64,000 nt of DNA, taken from positions 1 through 64,000 of the forward strand of contig JAJPES010000053.1 of the NCBI GenBank assembly GCA_021166725.1. The letters are read 5' to 3'. Shown in pieces: positions 38,690 through 48,924 of the stretch. The DNA is from Burkholderiaceae bacterium (GTDB lineage: Bacteria; Pseudomonadota; Gammaproteobacteria; Burkholderiales; Burkholderiaceae_E). Made by a program: the position numbers and the translations under genes. A model generated the notes under the pieces. It was not told where the DNA came from and searched no databases. It saw only the letters and a program-made list of their open reading frames with translations. Each line of letters opens with the position of its first letter. The stretch's first letter is position 1.

Positions 38690-39259
38690 ATGCGCCCGAC
38701 CGCTGCAGGCTTCGCCGCCGGCTGCGCCGCGCTCCTGCTCTCGAGCGCCGGTAGCGCCGCTGCCTTCGAACTCTCCAGTCCCGAGTTGAAACCGAACGCG
38801 ACGATTCCCGAGAAGAACGTCTACAACGGTTTCGGCTGCAAGGGAGACAACATTTCCCCGGCGTTGTCGTGGAAGGACGCGCCGAAGGACACGAAGAGCT
38901 TCGCGTTGATGGTCCACGACCCGGACGCGCCCACCGGCGGTGCCGGCTGGTGGCACTGGGTCGTCTACAACCTGCCCGCCGACACCATGTCGCTGGCCGA
39001 CGGTGCCGGCTCGGTGGACGGCAAGAACCTGCCGCAGGGCGCGGCGCAGCAGACCACCGATTTCGGCGTGCCGGGTTGGGGCGGCCCGTGCCCGCCGGCC
39101 GGCGACAAGCCGCATCGCTACGTGTTCACGGTGTACGCGCTGAAGGTGGACAAGCTCGACATTCCGGCCGGCGCCAGCGCGTCGTTCGTCGGTTTCATGA
39201 TCAACGCGAACGCGCTGGGCAAGGCGCGGCTGACGGCGAAGTACGCACGCCCGAAGTAG
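38690..39259 (+). CDS. YbhB/YbcL family PEBP-like secreted protein
   Basis: A 189-aa phosphatidylethanolamine-binding-protein fold. A signal peptide (first ~27 residues, ending SAGSAAAF) precedes the domain. Family features are GDNISPALSWKDAPKDTKSFALMVHDPDAPTGG, WWHWVVYNLPA and the closing YALKVDKLDIPAGAS segment. Bacterial members are periplasmic with unknown ligands. It stands alone: 199 bp of non-coding DNA separates it from the CoxL gene and 176 bp from the next gene. Confidence 0.92.
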   Translation: MRPTAAGFAAGCAALLLSSAGSAAAFELSSPELKPNATIPEKNVYNGFGCKGDNISPALSWKDAPKDTKSFALMVHDPDAPTGGAGWWHWVVYNLPADTMSLADGAGSVDGKNLPQGAAQQTTDFGVPGWGGPCPPAGDKPHRYVFTVYALKVDKLDIPAGASASFVGFMINANALGKARLTAKYARPK

Positions 39260-39435: not shown

Positions 39436-42246
39436 ATGTCCGCCGAAGCGCCCGCCTTCGGGCGCAACAACCTGATCATCGACACGCTGTGGACGGTGCT
39501 GCGCCGGCATCGCCGCGACGCACTGATCGCCGCGTTGTTCCTCGTTCTCGCCAAGGTGGCGAGCGTGGCGGTGCCGCTCGTTCTCAAGCGCATCGTCGAC
39601 GAATTCACCATTGCGGAAGGCGCGCGCAACGCGGCGCTGTCCGGCCAGCCGCCGGCGATCGCGCCGCTCGTTGCCGTGCCGGTGTTCCTGCTGATCGGCT
39701 ACAGCCTGCTGCGCTTCTCGAGCACGCTGTTCGTCGAGTTGCGCGACATGAGCTTCGTGCGCGTGACGCTCGATTCGATTTCGGGCACCGCCGAGCGATC
39801 GCTGCTGCACCTGCTGCGGCTCGGGCCGCGCTTTCACGCGAGCCGCAATTCGGGGTCGCTGCTGCACGACGTGAATCGGGGAACCGCCTCCGTCGGCTTC
39901 CTGCTGGGCGCTGCGCTGTTCACGCTGCTGCCCACGCTCGTCGAGATCGGCGGCGTGCTGGTCGTGATGATCGCCGGCTACAGCCTTTGGTTCACCGCGA
40001 TCATCGTCGCCACCTTCGGCGTCTACGCTTTCTACACCTTCGTGATGACGAAGCGTCGCGTCGAGTTCGAGGCGCGCGTGAACGCGACCGGCGCGCGAGC
40101 CGAAGGCAGCCTGCTCGACAGCCTGCTGAACTACGAGGCGGTGAAGGTCAACGTGCGCGAGCGACACGAGTCTCGCCGCTACGCGGCGCTGATGGACGAG
40201 TGGTCGCAGCTCAGCGTGCAGAGCCAGTACGCGCTGTCGCGCCTGCACATCGGGCAGGGCGCGATCATCGCCGCCGGGGTTGCCGCGATCATGCTGCTCG
40301 CCGGCGAGTACACGATGCAGGGCGCGATGACGGTGGGTGACCTGGTTCTGGTCAACGCCTACGTGCTGCAGATCTGCATGCCGTTGAACGCGCTCGGTTT
40401 CCTGTTCCGCGAGACGCGAGACGCGATGGTCAACATCGACCGACTCGCGGTGCTGCTGCGCAACCCGGTGGAGTCCGACGAGGATCCGCCGCATCGCGCG
40501 CTGCTCGAAGGCAACCGGCCGCGCGTGGCCTTCGAGGAGGTCGAGTTCTCCTACGAGCCGGGCCGGCCGATCCTGCAGGGCGTGAGCTTCACCATCGAGC
40601 CCGGACGGACCGCCGCGGTGGTGGGCGGCAGCGGTTCCGGCAAGTCGACGCTCGCGCGGCTGCTGATGCGCATGTACGAGCCGGACGGCGGACGGATCCT
40701 GGTCGACGACACCGACATCCGTCGCATCGGGCTGCCGAGCCTGCGCGGTGCGATCGGCGTGGTGCCGCAGGACACCGTCCTGTTCAACGACACGGTCGCC
40801 TACAACATCGCGTATGGACGCGTGGGCGCCACGCATGCCGAGGTGATCGAGGCGGCGAAGGCGGCGCAGCTGCACGAGCTGATCATGTCGCTGCCGCAGC
40901 AGTACGAGACGGCGGTGGGCGAGCGCGGGTTAATGCTCTCCGGCGGCGAGCGCCAGCGGCTGGCCATCGCGCGCGCCTTGTTGAAGGACCCGCCGATGCT
41001 GATCTTCGACGAGGCGACGTCCGCACTGGACACCCGCGCCGAGCGCGCGATCCAGAGCGAGATCGATCGCATCGCGCGCGATCGCACGACGCTGATCATT
41101 GCGCACCGGTTGTCGACGATCGTCGATGCGGACGAGATCATCGTGCTCGATCGCGGTCGCATCGTAGAGCGAGGCCGGCACGACGATCTGCTCGGGCGGC
41201 GCGGGCTGTACGCGCAGTTGTGGAACCTGCAGCAGCAGCAGCTCGATGTCGAGCGCACCGAGCGGCGGCTCGCGCGCCAGCCGGTCAACCTCGGCGTCGT
41301 GCTGGCCAGCGTGCTCGACGGCGTGCGCGGCATCGTCGACGAGCGCTCGATCCAGATCTTCACCGACATCGAACCGGCGCAGGCGCGCATCACCGGCGAC
41401 CCGAGCGTGCTGTCGCAGGCGCTGTGGGACCTCACGCTGCACGCGTTGAATGCGACGCCCGATGGCGGGCGCATCGAATGGGCGATCACGCGGCACGATG
41501 GATCGGCGCGGCTCGTGCTGACCGACGGATGGCACTCGTCGGGCGAGTTGCGCGCGCCGCCACCGGATGGCGTTGCGTCGGCCGATCCGCTGCAACTGCG
41601 CAGCGTGTTCGAGCGACACGGCGGCCGTTTCACGATCGAGCCGCCCGGGCCGGGGCACGGCACGCGCTACGTCGTGGAACTGCCGTTGCGCGCGATCGAC
41701 GCGGGCGATGTTTCGGTTCGCGAGTCGGCGCAGCGGGCGCCGGCTGCCGAACGCCGGCTGGGCGGCCTGTACATCGTGGCGATCGACGACGTTGCCGACG
41801 TGCGCGAAATGCTGCAGCTCACGCTCGAGCACGAGGGCGCGGAAGTCGTCACCTTCGAACACGGCTTCGAGGCGCTCGAGTGGCTGTCTTCGGTCGCGCC
41901 CGCCCGCTGGCCGGACGTCATGCTGTGCGACATCGCGCTCGGCGACGAGGACGGACACGACATCGTACGCGCACTGCGCCAGCTGGAGGCGCGTCTCGGC
42001 GTGGCTCTAGATCAGCGGATGCCGGCGATCGCTCTCACCGGGATGGCGAAGTCCGAGGACCGGTTGCGCGCGCTGATGGCGGGCTTCCAGGTGCACCTGG
42101 CCAAGCCCGTGCAAGTGGACGAGCTGGTCGCGACGATTCGCCGGGTGGCGCCGGCGAAACGCGCGCCGGCGTTCGACGACGACCGGGCGCACGCCGGCGA
42201 CGATGAGCCTACCGAACCTTCGGCTTCGACAGGAGACGAGCGATGA
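39436..42246 (+). CDS. ABC exporter fused to kinase-like ATPase and response-regulator receiver domains
   Basis: A 936-aa fusion. Residues about 20-310 are a six-helix exporter domain of the Atm1/HMT1 type. Then comes a nucleotide-binding domain (Walker A GGSGSGKST near 396, signature LSGGERQ near 502, IFDEATSALD). After a Gln-rich joint (LQQQQLDVE) a histidine-kinase-like ATPase domain follows (about 600-725) whose N-box has His for Asn (LTLHALNATPDGG) and whose G-box is DGWHSSG, so ATP binding is doubtful. Finally an intact receiver domain has Asp832 (CDIALGD), Thr in ALTG and Lys near 888 (AKPV). The ATG at 39436 lacks a clear ribosome site; a TTG at 39367 is possible. Signal input could gate export. 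Confidence 0.9.
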   Translation: MSAEAPAFGRNNLIIDTLWTVLRRHRRDALIAALFLVLAKVASVAVPLVLKRIVDEFTIAEGARNAALSGQPPAIAPLVAVPVFLLIGYSLLRFSSTLFVELRDMSFVRVTLDSISGTAERSLLHLLRLGPRFHASRNSGSLLHDVNRGTASVGFLLGAALFTLLPTLVEIGGVLVVMIAGYSLWFTAIIVATFGVYAFYTFVMTKRRVEFEARVNATGARAEGSLLDSLLNYEAVKVNVRERHESRRYAALMDEWSQLSVQSQYALSRLHIGQGAIIAAGVAAIMLLAGEYTMQGAMTVGDLVLVNAYVLQICMPLNALGFLFRETRDAMVNIDRLAVLLRNPVESDEDPPHRALLEGNRPRVAFEEVEFSYEPGRPILQGVSFTIEPGRTAAVVGGSGSGKSTLARLLMRMYEPDGGRILVDDTDIRRIGLPSLRGAIGVVPQDTVLFNDTVAYNIAYGRVGATHAEVIEAAKAAQLHELIMSLPQQYETAVGERGLMLSGGERQRLAIARALLKDPPMLIFDEATSALDTRAERAIQSEIDRIARDRTTLIIAHRLSTIVDADEIIVLDRGRIVERGRHDDLLGRRGLYAQLWNLQQQQLDVERTERRLARQPVNLGVVLASVLDGVRGIVDERSIQIFTDIEPAQARITGDPSVLSQALWDLTLHALNATPDGGRIEWAITRHDGSARLVLTDGWHSSGELRAPPPDGVASADPLQLRSVFERHGGRFTIEPPGPGHGTRYVVELPLRAIDAGDVSVRESAQRAPAAERRLGGLYIVAIDDVADVREMLQLTLEHEGAEVVTFEHGFEALEWLSSVAPARWPDVMLCDIALGDEDGHDIVRALRQLEARLGVALDQRMPAIALTGMAKSEDRLRALMAGFQVHLAKPVQVDELVATIRRVAPAKRAPAFDDDRAHAGDDEPTEPSASTGDER

Positions 42247-42836
42247 CGACGACACCTACCCCCGCCGTCCTGCGCAGCGAGCTCGGCGTGCGGGGCAGCT
42301 GGTACGCCGACCGCGCCTGCGCGCAACGGGCGATCGAAATGGCACTGCCGGCGATCGAGGCGGCCGTCGCGCGACCGGAGGTGAGCGGCGGCGGCTTTCT
42401 CTCGATCGTCGTTCTCGACCCGGCGCTCGCGCCGGGCGATTGCACCTTCGAAGAGGCGATCCTCGCCGAGCACCAGATCGGCGATCGCGCGCAATGGGAC
42501 GCCGACTACCTCATGTTCGCGCGCGCGAAGGCGCGGCAGGCATGGTTGCACGCGGCCGACACGCATCGGCTGCTCGCGTTGCAGCCGCATCGCCTGCGCG
42601 TGGGCGACGTCGCCGTGTGGGGCGCGGTCTGCCTCGACGGCATCGTCGTCGGCGTGAGCGGCGCTCATCCGTGGTACGACGAAGCTTTCGCGACGATGAT
42701 CGCTGCGACGCTGCGCGCGCTGGTGAAGGAAGCCGCTGCAGGGCAGCACGAGCCTTTCGTCGGACCGCGCCCGGTCGGCGGTGACGCAGCGAGCGACAGC
42801 GAACATCGAACGCCGCCGGGCGCTGCACCGCAGTAG
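42243..42836 (+). CDS. Hypothetical protein coupled to the ABC-receiver fusion
   Basis: A 197-aa soluble protein not recognised. The start ATG overlaps the fusion's stop (ATGA), so the pair is translationally coupled and probably acts together. It has no signal peptide or membrane helix. The middle is rich in Trp and His (WLHAADTHRLLALQPHRLRVGDVAVWG), and the last 30 residues are a low-complexity Gly/Pro/Ala tail. An effector, ligand sensor or adaptor for the transporter are all possible. Confidence 0.7.
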   Translation: MTTTPTPAVLRSELGVRGSWYADRACAQRAIEMALPAIEAAVARPEVSGGGFLSIVVLDPALAPGDCTFEEAILAEHQIGDRAQWDADYLMFARAKARQAWLHAADTHRLLALQPHRLRVGDVAVWGAVCLDGIVVGVSGAHPWYDEAFATMIAATLRALVKEAAAGQHEPFVGPRPVGGDAASDSEHRTPPGAAPQ

Positions 42837-42999: not shown

Positions 43000-44373
43000 A
43001 TGCGAACTATCGCGATCGTCAGCGAGCATGCTTCGCCGCTTTGTGCCGTGGGCGGCGTCGACGCTGGCGGACAGAACATCTACGTTGCCAACGTGGCGCG
43101 CGAGCTCGCCCGCCTCGGCCTGCAGGTCGACGTCTATACGCGCAGCGACAACGCTTCGCTCGCCCGCGTCGTGGACTTCGCACCGGGTGTGCGCGTGGTC
43201 CACGTGCGCGCCGGTCCGCAGGCGGAGCTGCCGAAGGAGAAGCTGCTCGCGCACATGCCGGCCTTCTCGGCCGCGATGCATGCTTTCGTGCGCGAGCACA
43301 GGCTGCGCTACGACATCGTCCACGCGAACTTCTTCATGTCGGGCTGGGTCGGGCTGCGCTTCGCGCGTACCTTTCGCACGGCGCTCGTCACCACCTTCCA
43401 TGCGCTCGGGCGCGTGCGCCGCCAGCACCAGGGTGCCGACGACGGCTTCTCCGACGCGCGCTTCGACATCGAAGACGAGCTGGTGCGCGAGTCGCACCGC
43501 ATCGTCGCCGAATGTCCGCAGGACCTGCGCGACATGATCGAGCACTACGGCGCCGACTCGTCGCGCATCGACATCGTGCCCTGCGGCTTCGATCCCGCCG
43601 AACTCGAGCCGGCGGACCGGCAGGAGGCGCGCGCGCAGCTGCAATGGCCGAGCGACGCATTCACCGTGCTGCAACTCGGCCGCATGGTGCCGCGCAAGGG
43701 CGTCGACAACGTGATCCGCTCGATCGCGGTGTTGAAGAACCGCTTCGGCCATGACGCGCGGCTGATGATTGCGGGAGGCAATTCCAGCAACCCGGCGCTG
43801 AACCGCACGCCCGAGCTCGAGCGGCTCGCGCGTATCGCGCGGGCCGAGGGCGTGGCCGATCGCGTCGAATTCATCGGCCGTTGCGATCGCGATCGGCTGC
43901 GTACGGTGTACAGCGCTGCCGATGTGTTCGTCACGACACCGTGGTACGAACCCTTCGGCATCACGCCGGTGGAGGCGATGGCCTGCGGATGTCCGGTGGT
44001 CGGCGCGGCGGTCGGCGGCATCCAGGACACCGTCGTCCACGGGCGCACCGGCTATCTGGTTCCGCCGAACGATCCGGTCGCGCTGGCCGAGCGCCTGGCG
44101 CAGCTCGGGGCGAAGCCGGAGCTGGCGCTGCGGATGGGTCGTGCAGGTCTGTCCCGCGCCAAAAGATTGTTCACCTGGGCGCGCGTCGCGCGCGGGCTGC
44201 TCGACGTCTATCGCAGCGCCGCGGCATGCGCTCGCGCGCCTACATCCGCGCTCGCCGATGCCGATGCGATGCCGGCGAAGGTGGCACGCCTGCCGCTGCG
44301 CGCGGCACGCGCCCGATCGACATCCGAAGCAGGAATGAGGAGAAGCAATGCAGCAGCCGTCGGCTGGAAGTGA
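43000..44373 (+). CDS. GT4-family glycosyltransferase
   Basis: A 457-aa retaining glycosyltransferase of the GT-B fold. The N-terminal GGVDAGGQNIYVANVARELARLG is the acceptor-side motif shared with MshA and sucrose-phosphate synthase-like enzymes. The C-terminal domain has LQLGRMVPRKGVDNVI and the donor-binding EPFGITPVEAMACGCPVV with the E-X7-E motif. The ATG at 43000 fits family alignment. It heads the glycan gene group and overlaps the SDR gene by 26 bp. Confidence 0.9.
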   Translation: MRTIAIVSEHASPLCAVGGVDAGGQNIYVANVARELARLGLQVDVYTRSDNASLARVVDFAPGVRVVHVRAGPQAELPKEKLLAHMPAFSAAMHAFVREHRLRYDIVHANFFMSGWVGLRFARTFRTALVTTFHALGRVRRQHQGADDGFSDARFDIEDELVRESHRIVAECPQDLRDMIEHYGADSSRIDIVPCGFDPAELEPADRQEARAQLQWPSDAFTVLQLGRMVPRKGVDNVIRSIAVLKNRFGHDARLMIAGGNSSNPALNRTPELERLARIARAEGVADRVEFIGRCDRDRLRTVYSAADVFVTTPWYEPFGITPVEAMACGCPVVGAAVGGIQDTVVHGRTGYLVPPNDPVALAERLAQLGAKPELALRMGRAGLSRAKRLFTWARVARGLLDVYRSAAACARAPTSALADADAMPAKVARLPLRAARARSTSEAGMRRSNAAAVGWK

Positions 44374-45127
44374 AAGTGCGTCAGATGCGCACCCCGCGCC
44401 GCCGGTCGCCAGCCTCGACAAGCGCGTCGTCGTCGTCACCGGCGGCGCGAGCGGGCTCGGCGCCGCCACCTGCGCGGAACTCGGTGCCGCGGGGGCGCGC
44501 ATCGTCGTTGCCGATCTGGCGAAGGAGCGCGCACAGCGTGGCGCGTCGCAGCTGAGCGAGAACGGCGTCGAGGCACTTGCCGCCGCAGTCGACGTAGGCG
44601 ACGAAGCCCAGGTGCAGCGCCTGTTCGGCGCGGCGATCGAGCGCTTCGGTGCGGTCGACGCCGTCGTCAACAGCGCGGCGATCGACGTCACGGCGCCGAT
44701 CTCGGAGCTGTCCGCCGCCGACTGGGAACGCATAGTGCGCACCAACCTGAACGGCGTGTTCCTCGTCGCGCGGCAGGCCTGCGCAGCGATGCGCGAGCGC
44801 GGCGGCGCGATCGTCAACATCGCGTCCACCGCGTCGAAGCGCGCGTGGCCGAACGCGAGCGCGTATCACGCGACGAAGTGGGGCGTGCTCGGACTGTCCC
44901 ACGCGCTGCACGCCGAACTGCGACCGCAGGGGATCAAGGTCTGCGCGATCGTCGCCGGCGGCATGCGCACGCCGTTCCTGCTCGATCGCTTCCCCGACAT
45001 CGACCCGTCGGTGCTGCAGGATCCGCGCAACGTCGCGCGCGCGATCCGCTTCGTGCTCGAGCAGCCCGCCGAAACCGTCATCCCCGAAATGATGGTGCTG
45101 CCGATGCGCGAAACCTCGTGGCCGTGA
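44348..45127 (+). CDS. SDR-family NAD(P)-dependent oxidoreductase
   Basis: A 259-aa short-chain dehydrogenase. After a Pro/Ala-rich N-terminus of about 25 residues come TGGASGLGAAT (cofactor glycines), NSAAIDV, the catalytic Ser in NIASTAS and YHATK. Acidic Asp in VVADLAKE suggests NAD preference. GAGGAG lies six bases before the ATG. Between glycosyltransferase and phosphatase genes it may modify a sugar nucleotide or polyol. Confidence 0.88.
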   Translation: MQQPSAGSESASDAHPAPPVASLDKRVVVVTGGASGLGAATCAELGAAGARIVVADLAKERAQRGASQLSENGVEALAAAVDVGDEAQVQRLFGAAIERFGAVDAVVNSAAIDVTAPISELSAADWERIVRTNLNGVFLVARQACAAMRERGGAIVNIASTASKRAWPNASAYHATKWGVLGLSHALHAELRPQGIKVCAIVAGGMRTPFLLDRFPDIDPSVLQDPRNVARAIRFVLEQPAETVIPEMMVLPMRETSWP

Positions 45128-45717
45128 CCGTGCCGCGGCCGGCGGTCTTTCTCGACAAGGACGGGACCTTGCTCGTCGACGTTCCGTTCAACGTCGATCC
45201 GCAGCGCATGTGCTTCGCCGAAGGCGTGCCGCGGGCGCTCGCGCGCCTGGCTGCTTTGGGCGCGCCGTTGATCGTGGTCAGCAACCAGGCGGGCGTTGCG
45301 CTCGGGCGCTTCGACGCGTCCCGGCTCGACGCCGTGCGCGGGCATCTGGGCGCGATGTTCGCGCAGTGCGGCGCGTCGCTGACCGCCGTCTATTTCTGCA
45401 CGCATCATCCGCAGGGAAGCGTCGCCGCGCACGCCGTGGCGTGCGACTGCCGCAAGCCGCGGCCGGGCCTGCTGCAGCGCGCGGCGCGAGAGCACGCCAT
45501 CGATCTGCAGCGTTCGTGGATGATCGGCGACATCCTCGACGACGTCGAGGCGGGCAAGCGCGCCGGGTGCCGCTCGGTGCTCGTGTGCAACGGCAACGAA
45601 ACCGAATGGATCGGCGGACCCTTTCGCCGGCCCGACCATCTGGTGCGCGACCTCGGCGAGGCCGCCGCACTCGTCGAGGCAGCGGGCGTGCCGCGCGGCG
45701 TGCCGGTGGCCGCATGA
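45124..45717 (+). CDS. HAD-IIIA phosphatase (GmhB-like)
   Basis: A 197-aa HAD phosphatase like D-glycero-D-manno-heptose-1,7-bisphosphate 7-phosphatase. The nucleophile motif is FLDKDGTLL (Asp11, Asp13), motif II VVSNQAG, and later MIGDILDDVEAG. The zinc loop with CTHHPQGS, then CDCRKPRPG, matches the Cys-His-Cys-Cys cluster of GmhB. The GTG at 45124 overlaps the SDR stop (GTGA); GTG at 45118 is equally possible. Co-occurrence with two GT9 genes supports heptose metabolism. Confidence 0.85.
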   Translation: MTVPRPAVFLDKDGTLLVDVPFNVDPQRMCFAEGVPRALARLAALGAPLIVVSNQAGVALGRFDASRLDAVRGHLGAMFAQCGASLTAVYFCTHHPQGSVAAHAVACDCRKPRPGLLQRAAREHAIDLQRSWMIGDILDDVEAGKRAGCRSVLVCNGNETEWIGGPFRRPDHLVRDLGEAAALVEAAGVPRGVPVAA

Positions 45718-46838
45718 ACGAAGCATGGTCGAAGGCCGAGCGCGTGCTTTGCGTGCGGCTCGACAACATGGGCGACGTGCTGATGACGACGCCGGCGATT
45801 CGCGCGATCCGGGAAGCCATGCCGTCGCGGCACATCACGCTGCTCGGTTCGTCCTCGGGCGTGCGGGCGGCCGCGCACGTTCCCGAGATCGACGCGGCGA
45901 TCGGCTACGAGGCGCCGTGGATGAAGAACGAACGCACCGACGAATCGGGTGCCGACGCCGATCAGGCGTTCATCGACGTTCTCGCCGCACATCGATTCGA
46001 CGCTGCGGTGATCTTCACTTCCTACAGCCAGAGTCCGATCGCGCCGGCGCTGGTGTGCCGGATGGCGGGCATCCCGCTGCGGCTCGCGCACTGTCGCGAG
46101 AATCCGTACCTGCTGCTCACCGACTGGCTGGCGGAAACCGAACCGGTGCAGCAGGTGCGCCACGAGGTCGAGCGACAACTGGACCTGGTCGCCGGCTTCG
46201 CGCCGCGCCCCTCCGATCTGCGGCTGTCGTTCCGCGTGTCCGAGCCCGATCGGGCGGCGCTCACGTCGAAGCTGCGCACGGCCGGCGTCGATCCCGCTGC
46301 CGCGCGCATCGTCGTGCATCCGGGGGCGAGCGCGCCGTCGCGCCGATGGCCGGCGGCGCATTTCGCGCAGACCGTGCGCGAACTCGCGCAGTGCCAGCGC
46401 CGCGAGATCGTGCTCACCGGCGACGCCGGCGAAACCACGCTCGTCTCCGCCATTGCGGCGCAGGCGGGCAACCCCGAGTGCGTGCACGACCTGTCGGGGC
46501 GTTTGTCGCTGGGCGAACTCGGCGCGCTGCTCGAAGATTCCGACCTGCTGATCGCCAACAACACCGGACCGGTGCACGTCGCCGCCGCACTCGGCACACC
46601 GGTGGTCGATCTCTATGCGTTGACCAATCCGCAGCACGCACCCTGGCGGGTGGCCGCGCGCGTGCTGAACCGCGACGTACCGTGCCGCAATTGCTACAAG
46701 AGCGTGTGTCCGAACGGAACACAGGCGTGCCTGGTCGGTGTCGAGCCCCGCGAAGCGGTGGACGCCGCGCTCGCGCTGCTGTCGGCGCGGCGTTCGATGC
46801 GCGCGCTCGAAGAAAGATTCACCGACCAGGAGCATTGA
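45714..46838 (+). CDS. GT9 (heptosyltransferase-like) glycosyltransferase, copy 1
   Basis: A 374-aa GT9 protein. The start region VLCVRLDNMGDVLMTTPAIRAIREAMP, the mid VVHPGASAPSRRWPAAHFAQ and ANNTGPVHVAAALGTPVVDLYALTNP are heptosyltransferase motifs. A Cys-rich loop (CRNCYKSVCPNGTQAC) lies near the C-terminus. Its ATG overlaps the phosphatase stop (ATGA). It probably adds ADP-heptose or a similar sugar to lipopolysaccharide or another acceptor. Confidence 0.88.
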   Translation: MNEAWSKAERVLCVRLDNMGDVLMTTPAIRAIREAMPSRHITLLGSSSGVRAAAHVPEIDAAIGYEAPWMKNERTDESGADADQAFIDVLAAHRFDAAVIFTSYSQSPIAPALVCRMAGIPLRLAHCRENPYLLLTDWLAETEPVQQVRHEVERQLDLVAGFAPRPSDLRLSFRVSEPDRAALTSKLRTAGVDPAAARIVVHPGASAPSRRWPAAHFAQTVRELAQCQRREIVLTGDAGETTLVSAIAAQAGNPECVHDLSGRLSLGELGALLEDSDLLIANNTGPVHVAAALGTPVVDLYALTNPQHAPWRVAARVLNRDVPCRNCYKSVCPNGTQACLVGVEPREAVDAALALLSARRSMRALEERFTDQEH

Positions 46839-46843
46839 ACCGG

Positions 46844-47950
46844 ATGGCAGCCTTGCCCGTTGAACCGATGAACCATGAGCGCGCGCCGCGCATCGCGGTG
46901 TTCCGCGCGCTGCAGCTGGGTGACCTGCTTTGCGCAGTGCCGGTGTTGCGCGCGTTGAGACACGCGCATCCGCGAGCGCACGTCACCCTGATCGGACTGC
47001 CTTCGTCCTCAGCTTTCGCACGGCGATTCGACCGCTATGTCGACGACTGGCTCGGCTTTCCCGGCGCGGCCGGACTGCCCGAGCAGTCGCCCGAAGGCGT
47101 GCGTCTGCCGGAGTTTTTCGCCGAAGCCCGCGCGCGGCGCTTCGATCTTGCGCTGCAATTGCACGGCAGCGGCGAACGCACCAACGGCATCGTGCGGATG
47201 ATCGGCGCGAAGCGCAGTTGCGGTTTCGCTCCGGAACACGGCGTCGAAAGCGCCGGTGACGACTTCGTGCGCTGGCCCGAGGAAATATCGGAGATCGAGC
47301 GCCTGCTGCGCATCGTCGATCACCTCGGTATCGAAAGGCGCGGCAGCGAGCTCGAGTTCCCGGTGAGCGATGACGAGCGGCGCTCGTGGCGTCGCATCGC
47401 GCAACGTCGGTCGCTCGATCCGCAGCGTCTCGTGCTCGTGCACCCCGGCGCCCGCTTCGCGTCGAGGCGCTGGCCGGTGGGACGTTTCGCCGAGCTGGCC
47501 GACCGGCTGGTGTCGCGCGGCTGGCAAGTCGCGATCACCGGCACTGCCGACGAACGCGCGCTCGCCGCGTCGATGCGCGCTTCGATGCGGATGCAGGCGG
47601 CCGACCTGAGCGGCGCCACCGGGCTCGGCGAGCTCGGCGCCGCGCTCGAAAGCTGCCGGCTCCTCGTCTGCAACGACACCGGCGTGTCGCACGTGGCCGT
47701 CGGCGTCGGCACGCGCAGCGTCGTCGTTGCCAGCGGCAGCGAGATCCGGCGCTGGAGGCCGCTCGATCGGCGACTGCATCCGATGCTCGCCGTCGACATG
47801 GACTGCCGACCGTGCGCGCACCCGAGCTGTCCGCGCGTCGGCCATCCGTGCGCGACCGCGGTCGGCGTCGATGCGGTGTTCGAACTGGCGCTGCACCAGT
47901 TGACGGCCGGTGCTTCGCGGCCGTCGCCGGCACTGGCGCCGGCCGCCTGA
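46844..47950 (+). CDS. GT9 (heptosyltransferase-like) glycosyltransferase, copy 2
   Basis: A 368-aa GT9 protein with IAVFRALQLGDLLCAVPVLRALRHAHP, VLVHPGARFASRRWPVGRFAELADRL and CNDTGVSHVAVGVGTRSVVVASGSE. It has its own Cys cluster (CRPCAHPSCPRVGHPCA), a feature shared with copy 1. The ATG at 46844 is 5 bp after copy 1; a second ATG at 46868 is possible. It differs enough from copy 1 to suggest a separate acceptor. Confidence 0.87.
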   Translation: MAALPVEPMNHERAPRIAVFRALQLGDLLCAVPVLRALRHAHPRAHVTLIGLPSSSAFARRFDRYVDDWLGFPGAAGLPEQSPEGVRLPEFFAEARARRFDLALQLHGSGERTNGIVRMIGAKRSCGFAPEHGVESAGDDFVRWPEEISEIERLLRIVDHLGIERRGSELEFPVSDDERRSWRRIAQRRSLDPQRLVLVHPGARFASRRWPVGRFAELADRLVSRGWQVAITGTADERALAASMRASMRMQAADLSGATGLGELGAALESCRLLVCNDTGVSHVAVGVGTRSVVVASGSEIRRWRPLDRRLHPMLAVDMDCRPCAHPSCPRVGHPCATAVGVDAVFELALHQLTAGASRPSPALAPAA

Positions 47951-47958
47951 GAGCGCCA

Positions 47959-48924
47959 GTGCCCAGGCCGGACGGCTCGCGCCTGCAGGTGCTCACCTGG
48001 CACGTGCACGGCAACTACCTGTACTACCTGAGCCAGGCGGCACACGACTTCCATCTCGTCACGCTGCCGGGTCATCCGCCCGGTCATGCGGGGCGCGTCG
48101 GCATGCTGCCGTGGGGACCGAACGTGCACGAGGTCCGCGCCGAGGACGTCGCCGGCCGGCGCTTCGACTGCGTGCTGTACCAGTCGCGTCGGCACTGGGA
48201 CGACGATCGCCTGCGATGGCTGAGCGACGCGCAGCGCGCGTTGCCCGCCGTGTATCTCGAGCACGATCCGCCGCAGCAGCATCCGACCGCCACGCGTCAT
48301 CCGGCGGCCGACAGCGACGCGCACATCGTGCACGTGACGTCGTTCAACGCGCTGATGTGGGACAACGGCAGTGCGCCAACGCGCGTCATCGAGCACGGCG
48401 TGCTCGTGCCCGACGAGGTTCGCTATCGCGGCGACCGCGACGAGGGCGTCGTCGTCGTCAATCATCTGCGCGAGCGCGGGCGCCGGCTCGGCGCCGACCT
48501 CTTCGAGCAGGTGCGCGAGCGCGTTCCGCTGACGCTGGTCGGCATGGGTTCGCAGGCGATCGGCGGTGAGGGCGAGATTCCGAACCTCGAGCTCGCCGGA
48601 TTCGTTGCGCGCTTTCGCTTCTTCTTCAATCCGATCCGTTATACGAGCCTGGGCCTGTCGGTACTCGAGGCGATGACCGTCGGCATGCCGGTGGTCGCGC
48701 TCGCCACCACCGAGATGCCGATGGTGATCCGCAACGGCGTGAACGGCTACGCCGATACGGATCTAGACGCGCTGGTCGACGTGATGCAAACGCTGATCGC
48801 CGACCCCGGTCTTGCCCGGCGCTGGGGCGAGGCGGCGCGCGCCGATGCACTCGCGCGCTTCTCGATCGAGCGCTTCGCGCGCGACTGGACGCAGTTCCTG
48901 AGCGAAGTGGCGCGCGACGGGTGA
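47959..48924 (+). CDS. Glycosyltransferase, GT-B fold (GT4-like)
   Basis: A 321-aa protein recognised by its C-terminal domain: YTSLGLSVLEAMTVGMPVVALATTEMP, then NGVNGYADTDLDALVDVMQTLIADP, the usual donor-binding and end pattern. The N-terminal half is unusual: HVHGNYLYYLSQAAHDFHLVTLPG and EHDPPQQHPTATRHPAADSDAHIVHVT. The GTG at 47959 is 8 bp after the GT9 gene. It closes the plus-strand group. Confidence 0.8.
   Translation: MPRPDGSRLQVLTWHVHGNYLYYLSQAAHDFHLVTLPGHPPGHAGRVGMLPWGPNVHEVRAEDVAGRRFDCVLYQSRRHWDDDRLRWLSDAQRALPAVYLEHDPPQQHPTATRHPAADSDAHIVHVTSFNALMWDNGSAPTRVIEHGVLVPDEVRYRGDRDEGVVVVNHLRERGRRLGADLFEQVRERVPLTLVGMGSQAIGGEGEIPNLELAGFVARFRFFFNPIRYTSLGLSVLEAMTVGMPVVALATTEMPMVIRNGVNGYADTDLDALVDVMQTLIADPGLARRWGEAARADALARFSIERFARDWTQFLSEVARDG

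Follow-up and report, generated by a model that had tools for sequence, protein, structure and literature searches.

Receiver domains typically exert their control over transcription, signalling enzymes or motility. The nearest precedent for one that controls a glycan pathway post-translationally, through a membrane enzyme, comes from Myxococcus xanthus, where the phosphorylated single-domain response regulator EpsW reportedly activates the glycan-initiating EpsZ by favouring the EpsZ dimer (PMC12802240). EpsW is a separate protein that targets a phosphoglycosyl transferase, whereas here we describe a receiver that sits on an exporter. The gene lies at 39436-42246 of a window of 64,000 nucleotides (the whole stretch analysed, positions 1 to 64,000 of contig JAJPES010000053.1, assembly GCA_021166725.1, Burkholderiaceae bacterium), and it joins an ATP-binding cassette (ABC) exporter half to a kinase ATPase domain that has degenerated and, after it, a receiver. 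The exporter half resembles the Atm1/ABCB7 half-exporters: plant Atm3 (7n58) and Novosphingobium Atm1 (4mrn) share its transmembrane half and ATPase, in matches covering residues 19-605 and 26-601, but these stop before the tail of the fused protein. The tail aligns with the ATPase domain and receiver of hybrid histidine kinases (PAS-HisKA-HATPase-REC) in identical order; unlike them, it is without the DHp domain, the G2 box and the lid, and it is joined to an exporter. The reading we favour, with a probability of about 0.52, is that export of a glycoconjugate is gated by this receiver, phosphorylated in trans, with an HbpS-like protein encoded by the next gene as sensor partner.

An earlier note, made from the letters of this DNA, had claimed that an exporter, a broken kinase ATPase domain and an intact receiver share one frame, and the open frame, Pfam, an alignment of relatives and a structure model all bear this out. 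The frame runs from 39436 to 42246 and encodes 936 residues, with no stop between domains. The relatives comprise 77 full-length fused open reading frames (ORFs), or 58 after removal of those more than 95% identical. The features of the gene are as follows.

39436..42246, + strand: fused gene, ABC exporter half, ATPase, pseudo-kinase ATPase domain and receiver (936 aa)
39523..40386, + strand: transmembrane domain, residues 30-317, PF00664 (Pfam)
40528..41235, + strand: nucleotide-binding domain, about residues 365-600 (Pfam, relatives' alignment)
41206..41274, + strand: predicted helix 591-613, connecting ATPase and tail (alignment, structure model)
41278..41688, + strand: degenerate kinase ATPase domain, residues 615-751 (profile, alignment, structure model)
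41773..42141, + strand: receiver domain, residues 780-902, PF00072 (Pfam, alignment, structure model)
41929..41931, + strand: phospho-acceptor codon Asp832 (kept in 58/58 relatives)
42103..42105, + strand: receiver lysine codon Lys890 (kept in 58/58 relatives)

Pfam recovered ABC_membrane at residues 30-317 (E 4.9e-28), ABC_tran at 380-529 (1.5e-34) and Response_reg at 780-902 (9.6e-19); HATPase_c at 654-697 was a sub-threshold match (E 0.0066, 17.3 bits against a cut-off of 26.4). The structure model, built from 34 aligned sequences (mean predicted local distance difference test score (pLDDT) 81.1, predicted template modelling score 0.64), has an exporter half, a long helix at 591-613 leading out of the ATPase, an alpha/beta domain at 615-751 and a receiver of alternating strands and helices at 779-904. 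It is poorly defined at 702-706 and 710-712, where a kinase would have its lid, and at 754-772. With a transmembrane domain and an ATPase carrying Walker A, signature and Walker B, the first part is an ABC exporter, an ABCB-like half-transporter. Walker A K403 and Walker B D525/E526 are kept in 77/77 relatives, as are W596, L598 and Q599 of the connecting helix, and Q445 of the Q-loop in 76/77, with a gap in the other one.

The earlier note had called for a search for this architecture across genomes, and the fusion proved to recur. A tail scan of genome contigs gave 262 confirmed relatives; among the best 80, which were kept, 62 were full-length fused exporters and 18 were not, and 15 added from other searches brought the set to 77. 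Full-length relatives occur in 4/18 genomes of the genus, the window's genome counted. In a draw from the order, 45/399 genomes pass E 1e-172 and 7/399 have the fused exporter; the other 38 matches are tail-less, stopping at residues 602-632. Three of the 398 genomes in a draw from the phylum pass E 1e-180, all three of them fused and all from the window's order. A search of 72,556 plasmid records gave 18 matches at E 1e-100, 8 of which cover at least 80% of the protein; one Burkholderia cenocepacia plasmid copy (L025:7932-10672) has a broken frame and aligns in three pieces. The named carriers (Burkholderia, Paraburkholderia, Caballeronia, Cupriavidus, Ralstonia, Bordetella, Achromobacter, Pigmentiphaga, Pusillimonas, Rhizobacter, Methylibium and Azoarcus) are all Betaproteobacteria, and the remaining carriers come from the window's order. 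The draft state of the window's genome (88 contigs, 88.97% complete) might have let an assembly or sequencing error join two genes, but the identical join is present in 58 non-redundant sequences, including named isolates and complete plasmid records. Recurrence in so many assemblies refutes a joining error, and with it both outcomes that the earlier note had set against itself, a sequencing error and absence of the architecture from relatives.

In the receiver, 58/58 relatives keep D785, D832 and K890 and have T or S at 868, and residue 784 is an Asp in 56 of them and a Glu in 2, so that the acidic residue, phospho-acceptor Asp, T/S and Lys that mark a receiver are all present; Response_reg was found in 34/34 members scanned with Pfam. 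Asp832 had been called correctly in the earlier note, and the lysine it placed near 888 is K890. Its word 'functional' is better narrowed to the conservation of the phosphorylation-site residues. Mean column identity across the 58 sequences is 0.70 in the ATPase, 0.55 in the transmembrane part, 0.49 in the receiver and 0.335, the lowest, in the pseudo-kinase. In two comparisons, of the window gene with its two closest relatives, the ratio of non-synonymous to synonymous substitution rates (dN/dS) came to 0.08-0.09 in the ATPase and 0.12-0.14 in the membrane part; the linker plus pseudo-kinase gave 0.165 and 0.202, and the receiver 0.155 and 0.207. The tail is constrained up to residue 905. Evolutionary distances in the exporter correlate with those in the pseudo-kinase (rho 0.59) and in the receiver (rho 0.37), with 0/999 permutations as high, as expected if exporter and tail parts mostly travelled together.

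To judge from profile, alignment and predicted structure, residues 615-751 are a real degenerate kinase domain whose catalytic boxes have been lost, as the earlier note had recognised from the broken N- and G-boxes. A profile of the tail matches many receivers and the kinase catalytic regions of solved structures 8avv, 9jfj and 6qrj, and Pfam found HATPase_c in 18/34 scanned members at E 0.01. The N-box Asn position holds Asn in 15 of the 58 sequences, His in 14 and other residues in 29; it is H669 in the window protein. When 15 relatives were aligned beside 10 intact kinases, they began downstream of the DHp domain; G1 was altered and the G2 box and lid were gone, while flanking sequence remained. 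The window protein has no PF00512 match, and a DHp profile matched 0 fused ORFs. With neither a DHp domain bearing the phospho-acceptor His nor intact N, G1 and G2 boxes and lid, the domain is not a histidine kinase. In two Ralstonia relatives (L115:8075-11197 and L117:8033-11206) a long Pro/Ala-rich insert occupies the place of the lost ATP lid.

The earlier label of an Atm1/HMT1-type exporter proved too simple. In a comparison with the PDB the nearest solved relatives are of Atm1/ABCB7 type, with ABCB4/ABCB1 close behind, yet 30 Atm1-like exporters of the order form one clade (SH-aLRT, an approximate likelihood ratio test, 100; quick tree, no bootstrap) with the fused exporters outside, and the gene sits in a glycan cluster. 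The tailed rows and the three nearest tail-less exporters lie apart from the 30 Atm1-like rows. This tree requires two gains or losses of the tail; the tail may have a single origin. Neighbouring genes were inspected for 6 of the 38 tail-less exporters found in the order draw. The three nearest (55-56% identity) occupy a glycan cluster of the same kind; around more distant Atm1-like exporters, 0/4 neighbourhoods read (L139, L140, L143 and L147) contained one. The fused protein is not MsbA, as it scores 405.3 bits against a TIGR02203 cut-off of 602. Since a separate protein elsewhere in the window's genome scores 727.5, above that cut-off, the fused exporter looks like a second system. The same genome also encodes an exporter (L004:678-2423) that fits the model of the cyanophycin-metabolism-associated ABC transporter (1220.7 bits, cut-off 880).

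Downstream of the exporter the window carries, in a row, genes for an HbpS-like protein, a GT4, an SDR, a HAD phosphatase, two GT9 proteins and a further GT4.

42243..42836, + strand: 197-aa member of a family with a weak relation to HbpS-like proteins (DUF336, PF03928); 4-base overlap with the exporter stop
43000..44373, + strand: GT4 glycosyltransferase (start inferred; frame open from 42781); best NCBIfam model MshA
44348..45127, + strand: short-chain dehydrogenase/reductase (SDR) (Pfam)
45124..45717, + strand: HAD-family phosphatase (relatives annotated HAD-IIIA)
45714..46838, + strand: GT9 (heptosyltransferase family)
46844..47950, + strand: second GT9 (heptosyltransferase family)
47908..48924, + strand: GT4-type glycosyltransferase (start approximate)

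Similar genes surround the fused exporter elsewhere. Of the 58 non-redundant loci, 44 extend at least 7 kb to each side (the other 14 were dropped for short flanks), and there the neighbours include a carbamoyltransferase in 38, GT4 in 38, GT9 in 36, a HAD phosphatase in 35, GT2 in 33, SDR in 32, the HbpS-like gene in 30, always on the exporter's strand, and PIG-L in 19. GT9, HAD phosphatase and carbamoyltransferase, which together mark a heptose/carbamoyl cluster, occur across the loci and are split over two contigs in the window's genome. This gene set makes a heptose-type, often carbamoylated glycoconjugate the likely cargo. A step of N-acetylglucosamine transfer and deacetylation in the cluster is possible, given the MshA-like GT4 and the PIG-L deacetylase; for the GT4 at 43000-44373 the best model, mycothiol MshA, scored 310.6 bits, under its cut-off of 462.5. 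The set resembles the Pseudomonas lipopolysaccharide core cluster, in which msbA lies with PIG-L, the carbamoyltransferase gene wapO and the heptosyltransferase genes waaC/waaF; the accessible part of that report mentions no tail on its MsbA (PMC8005017). A carbamoyltransferase is present in 7/7 fused genomes of the order draw. We rejected it as a strict partner of the tail, as it is also present in the tail-less genomes G075, G157 and G241 and had no match in the fused genome G006 (83% complete). Just upstream of the exporter, on the shared strand, lies a PEBP/YbhB-like gene (38690-39259); just two of the 66 longer loci, those of the closest relatives (L056 and L057), showed it.

The gene that overlaps the exporter stop belongs to a family whose weak relatives, the DUF336 proteins, include sensors. 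Reportedly, HbpS senses haem and acts upstream of a sensor kinase, and EfgA senses formaldehyde (PMC8153426, PMC4991794). The likeness of the family to HbpS, EfgA and GlcG (DUF336) lies in PF03928 matches, found in 6/30 family members with a best E of 3e-4; the window protein itself has no Pfam match. A PDB profile search with the family returned no meaningful match to a solved structure, and no HbpS, and the structure model of the window protein is confident, with a mean pLDDT of 88. From these profile matches we regard the family as weakly related to HbpS-like proteins.

Its distribution follows the fused exporter closely. The exporter, HbpS-like and carbamoyltransferase searches covered the same 399 genomes of the order, as taken from their equal size and matching handles. 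The family was found in 9/399, comprising 7/7 genomes with the fused exporter and 2/392 others (G401 and G056, the latter a 41-position fragment). Within the genus it is present in 3/4 fused genomes and 0/14 others. Over the combined 413 distinct genomes (399 plus 18, four shared) it occurs in 9/10 fused genomes against 2/403 others. The next gene, whose conservation the earlier note had wanted checked, does matter. Five genomes (G253, G369, G157, G075 and G241) have the glycan cluster without a fused exporter, and an HbpS-like match was found in 0/5. In three genomes the gene lies away from the exporter, by about 400 kb in G115 and about 60 kb in G340, and on another contig in G367. Taken together, the co-occurrence with fused exporters and the 0/5 in tail-less clusters indicate that the HbpS-like gene tracks the tailed exporter rather than the glycan cluster. 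Two more matches (G569 and G629, about 1e-31) came from a phylum draw of 339, two genomes that the exporter search did not cover.

Since the kinase domain is without its catalytic boxes, the phosphate would have to come in trans. The earlier note had reported no kinase nearby, and this stands for HisKA-type kinases, the only phospho-acceptor family of kinases that the search covered: of the genome's 31 HisKA matches, 0 are on the window's contig. Its 6 Hpt matches, spread over 3 ORFs, also lie elsewhere. A DHp search with a profile from 10 kinases, over 9 kb in 66 loci (not de-duplicated), found a DHp-bearing ORF close to the exporter in only 11/66, and we therefore rejected a linked cognate kinase as a general rule. 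Those with scanned domains comprise a CheB-CheR-PAS-kinase-REC protein (L109 and L022) and a PAS-kinase-REC protein (L020). The former, a large protein near the fused exporter, is encoded at L109:2656-6750, L096:2573-6748, L092:2737-6864, L021:2352-6452 and L022:13787-17866, with domains scanned in L109 and L022 and the other three assigned by BLAST similarity. It is a possible kinase donor in the Cupriavidus, Ralstonia sp. and Paraburkholderia lineages only. The latter (L020:4408-5991), from Burkholderia multivorans, is a hybrid kinase of PAS-HisKA-HATPase-REC architecture; it is encoded upstream of the fused exporter and has a relative in L135. With no HisKA match on the contig and a linked kinase in so few loci, an orphan kinase or a small phosphodonor would be needed. 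Carbamoyltransferases of this type normally use carbamoyl phosphate as their substrate. Acetyl and carbamoyl phosphate are both named as possible phosphodonors of a receiver protein in the EpsW report (PMC12802240).

These results suggest a model whereby an ancestral exporter acquired the C-terminal half of a hybrid histidine kinase. The fused protein would be a dedicated ABC exporter, presumably a homodimer, for the glycan or glycoconjugate made by the surrounding cluster. An orphan kinase, or a small donor such as acetyl or carbamoyl phosphate, would phosphorylate Asp832 in trans, and phosphorylation would shift the pairing or docking of the receiver beside the two ATPase domains such that export is either permitted or blocked. 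A homodimer would place two receivers near two ATPase domains, where receiver pairing could set the ATPase cycle. The HbpS-like protein would most likely be the ligand-sensing partner of the tail. The earlier note had already suggested that export could be gated by phosphorylation, and the receiver site, invariant in 58/58, keeps this as the leading explanation, with phosphorylation and gating as its conditional part. In a narrower version, which we consider fairly improbable, a small DUF336-type sensor would read a metabolite and set the receiver of the exporter, the dead kinase domain would couple the two and carbamoyl or acetyl phosphate would donate, matching export of a carbamoylated glycan to the supply of its own building block without a dedicated kinase; this would be a novel type of signalling unit.

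Several observations weigh against phosphorylation gating with an HbpS-like sensor. No kinase is consistently linked, and the correlation of exporter and receiver distances is only moderate (the rho of 0.37 above). Within the genus the receiver is constrained no more than the pseudo-kinase part by dN/dS, and the last 31 residues (906-936) are unconstrained (dN/dS 1.2 and 0.43). In the window's genome the carbamoyltransferase and a GT2 sit on another contig; G075 and G241 have carbamoyltransferase clusters without a fused exporter, so synthesis of the product may not depend on this pump. No HbpS-like match was found in the fused genome G012 (83% complete), and 14/44 loci have no HbpS-like gene nearby. 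Moreover, the co-occurrence counts are not independent, because the HbpS-like profile drew solely on neighbours of fused exporters and the genomes are related to one another.

The tail could instead serve as an assembly or docking scaffold that holds the exporter to the glycosyltransferases or to the HbpS-like protein, with phosphorylation irrelevant. The pseudo-kinase part is predicted to stay folded without its catalytic boxes and the set of cluster enzymes around the fused exporter is conserved, both of which fit such a role. However, a scaffold has no need of D832, K890 and T/S868, yet these are kept in 58/58 although column identity across the receiver is 0.49, and we consider this explanation unlikely. 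The same residues tell against a neutral fusion, the functionless leftover of a hybrid kinase. Here the pseudo-kinase, as the least conserved domain, is what such a leftover might look like, but the intact receiver site, the Response_reg match in every scanned member, a dN/dS of about 0.2 or less over the tail to residue 905 and the spread over many genera make it highly improbable.

Alternatively, signalling might flow in reverse, with the transporter as sensor and its receiver as the relay, or the phosphate sink, of a different pathway, the 'signalling hub' of the earlier note, for which only the architecture speaks. Receivers in hybrid kinases act as relays, and the Hpt and HisKA matches of the genome would offer partners. 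Against this, the window's contig has no match to either, thin evidence from a search that did not extend to a conserved linked regulator, and we regard reverse flow as improbable. Gating of export by the phosphorylated receiver remains the reading we prefer.

We found no description of an exporter-receiver fusion in open-access papers, using narrow terms and with subscription journals mostly uncovered, nor any description of this Burkholderiales glycan cluster. Both halves are of known kinds; what appears new, as far as we have seen, is that they have stayed joined, along with a dead kinase domain and accompanied by an HbpS-like protein. If our reading is correct, it would mean direct, fast control of export by two-component chemistry, with a phosphorylation site kept across several bacterial families, and it would be testable through one aspartate in one pump. 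It would also tie an uncharacterised protein family and a Burkholderiales glycan cluster to a common purpose.

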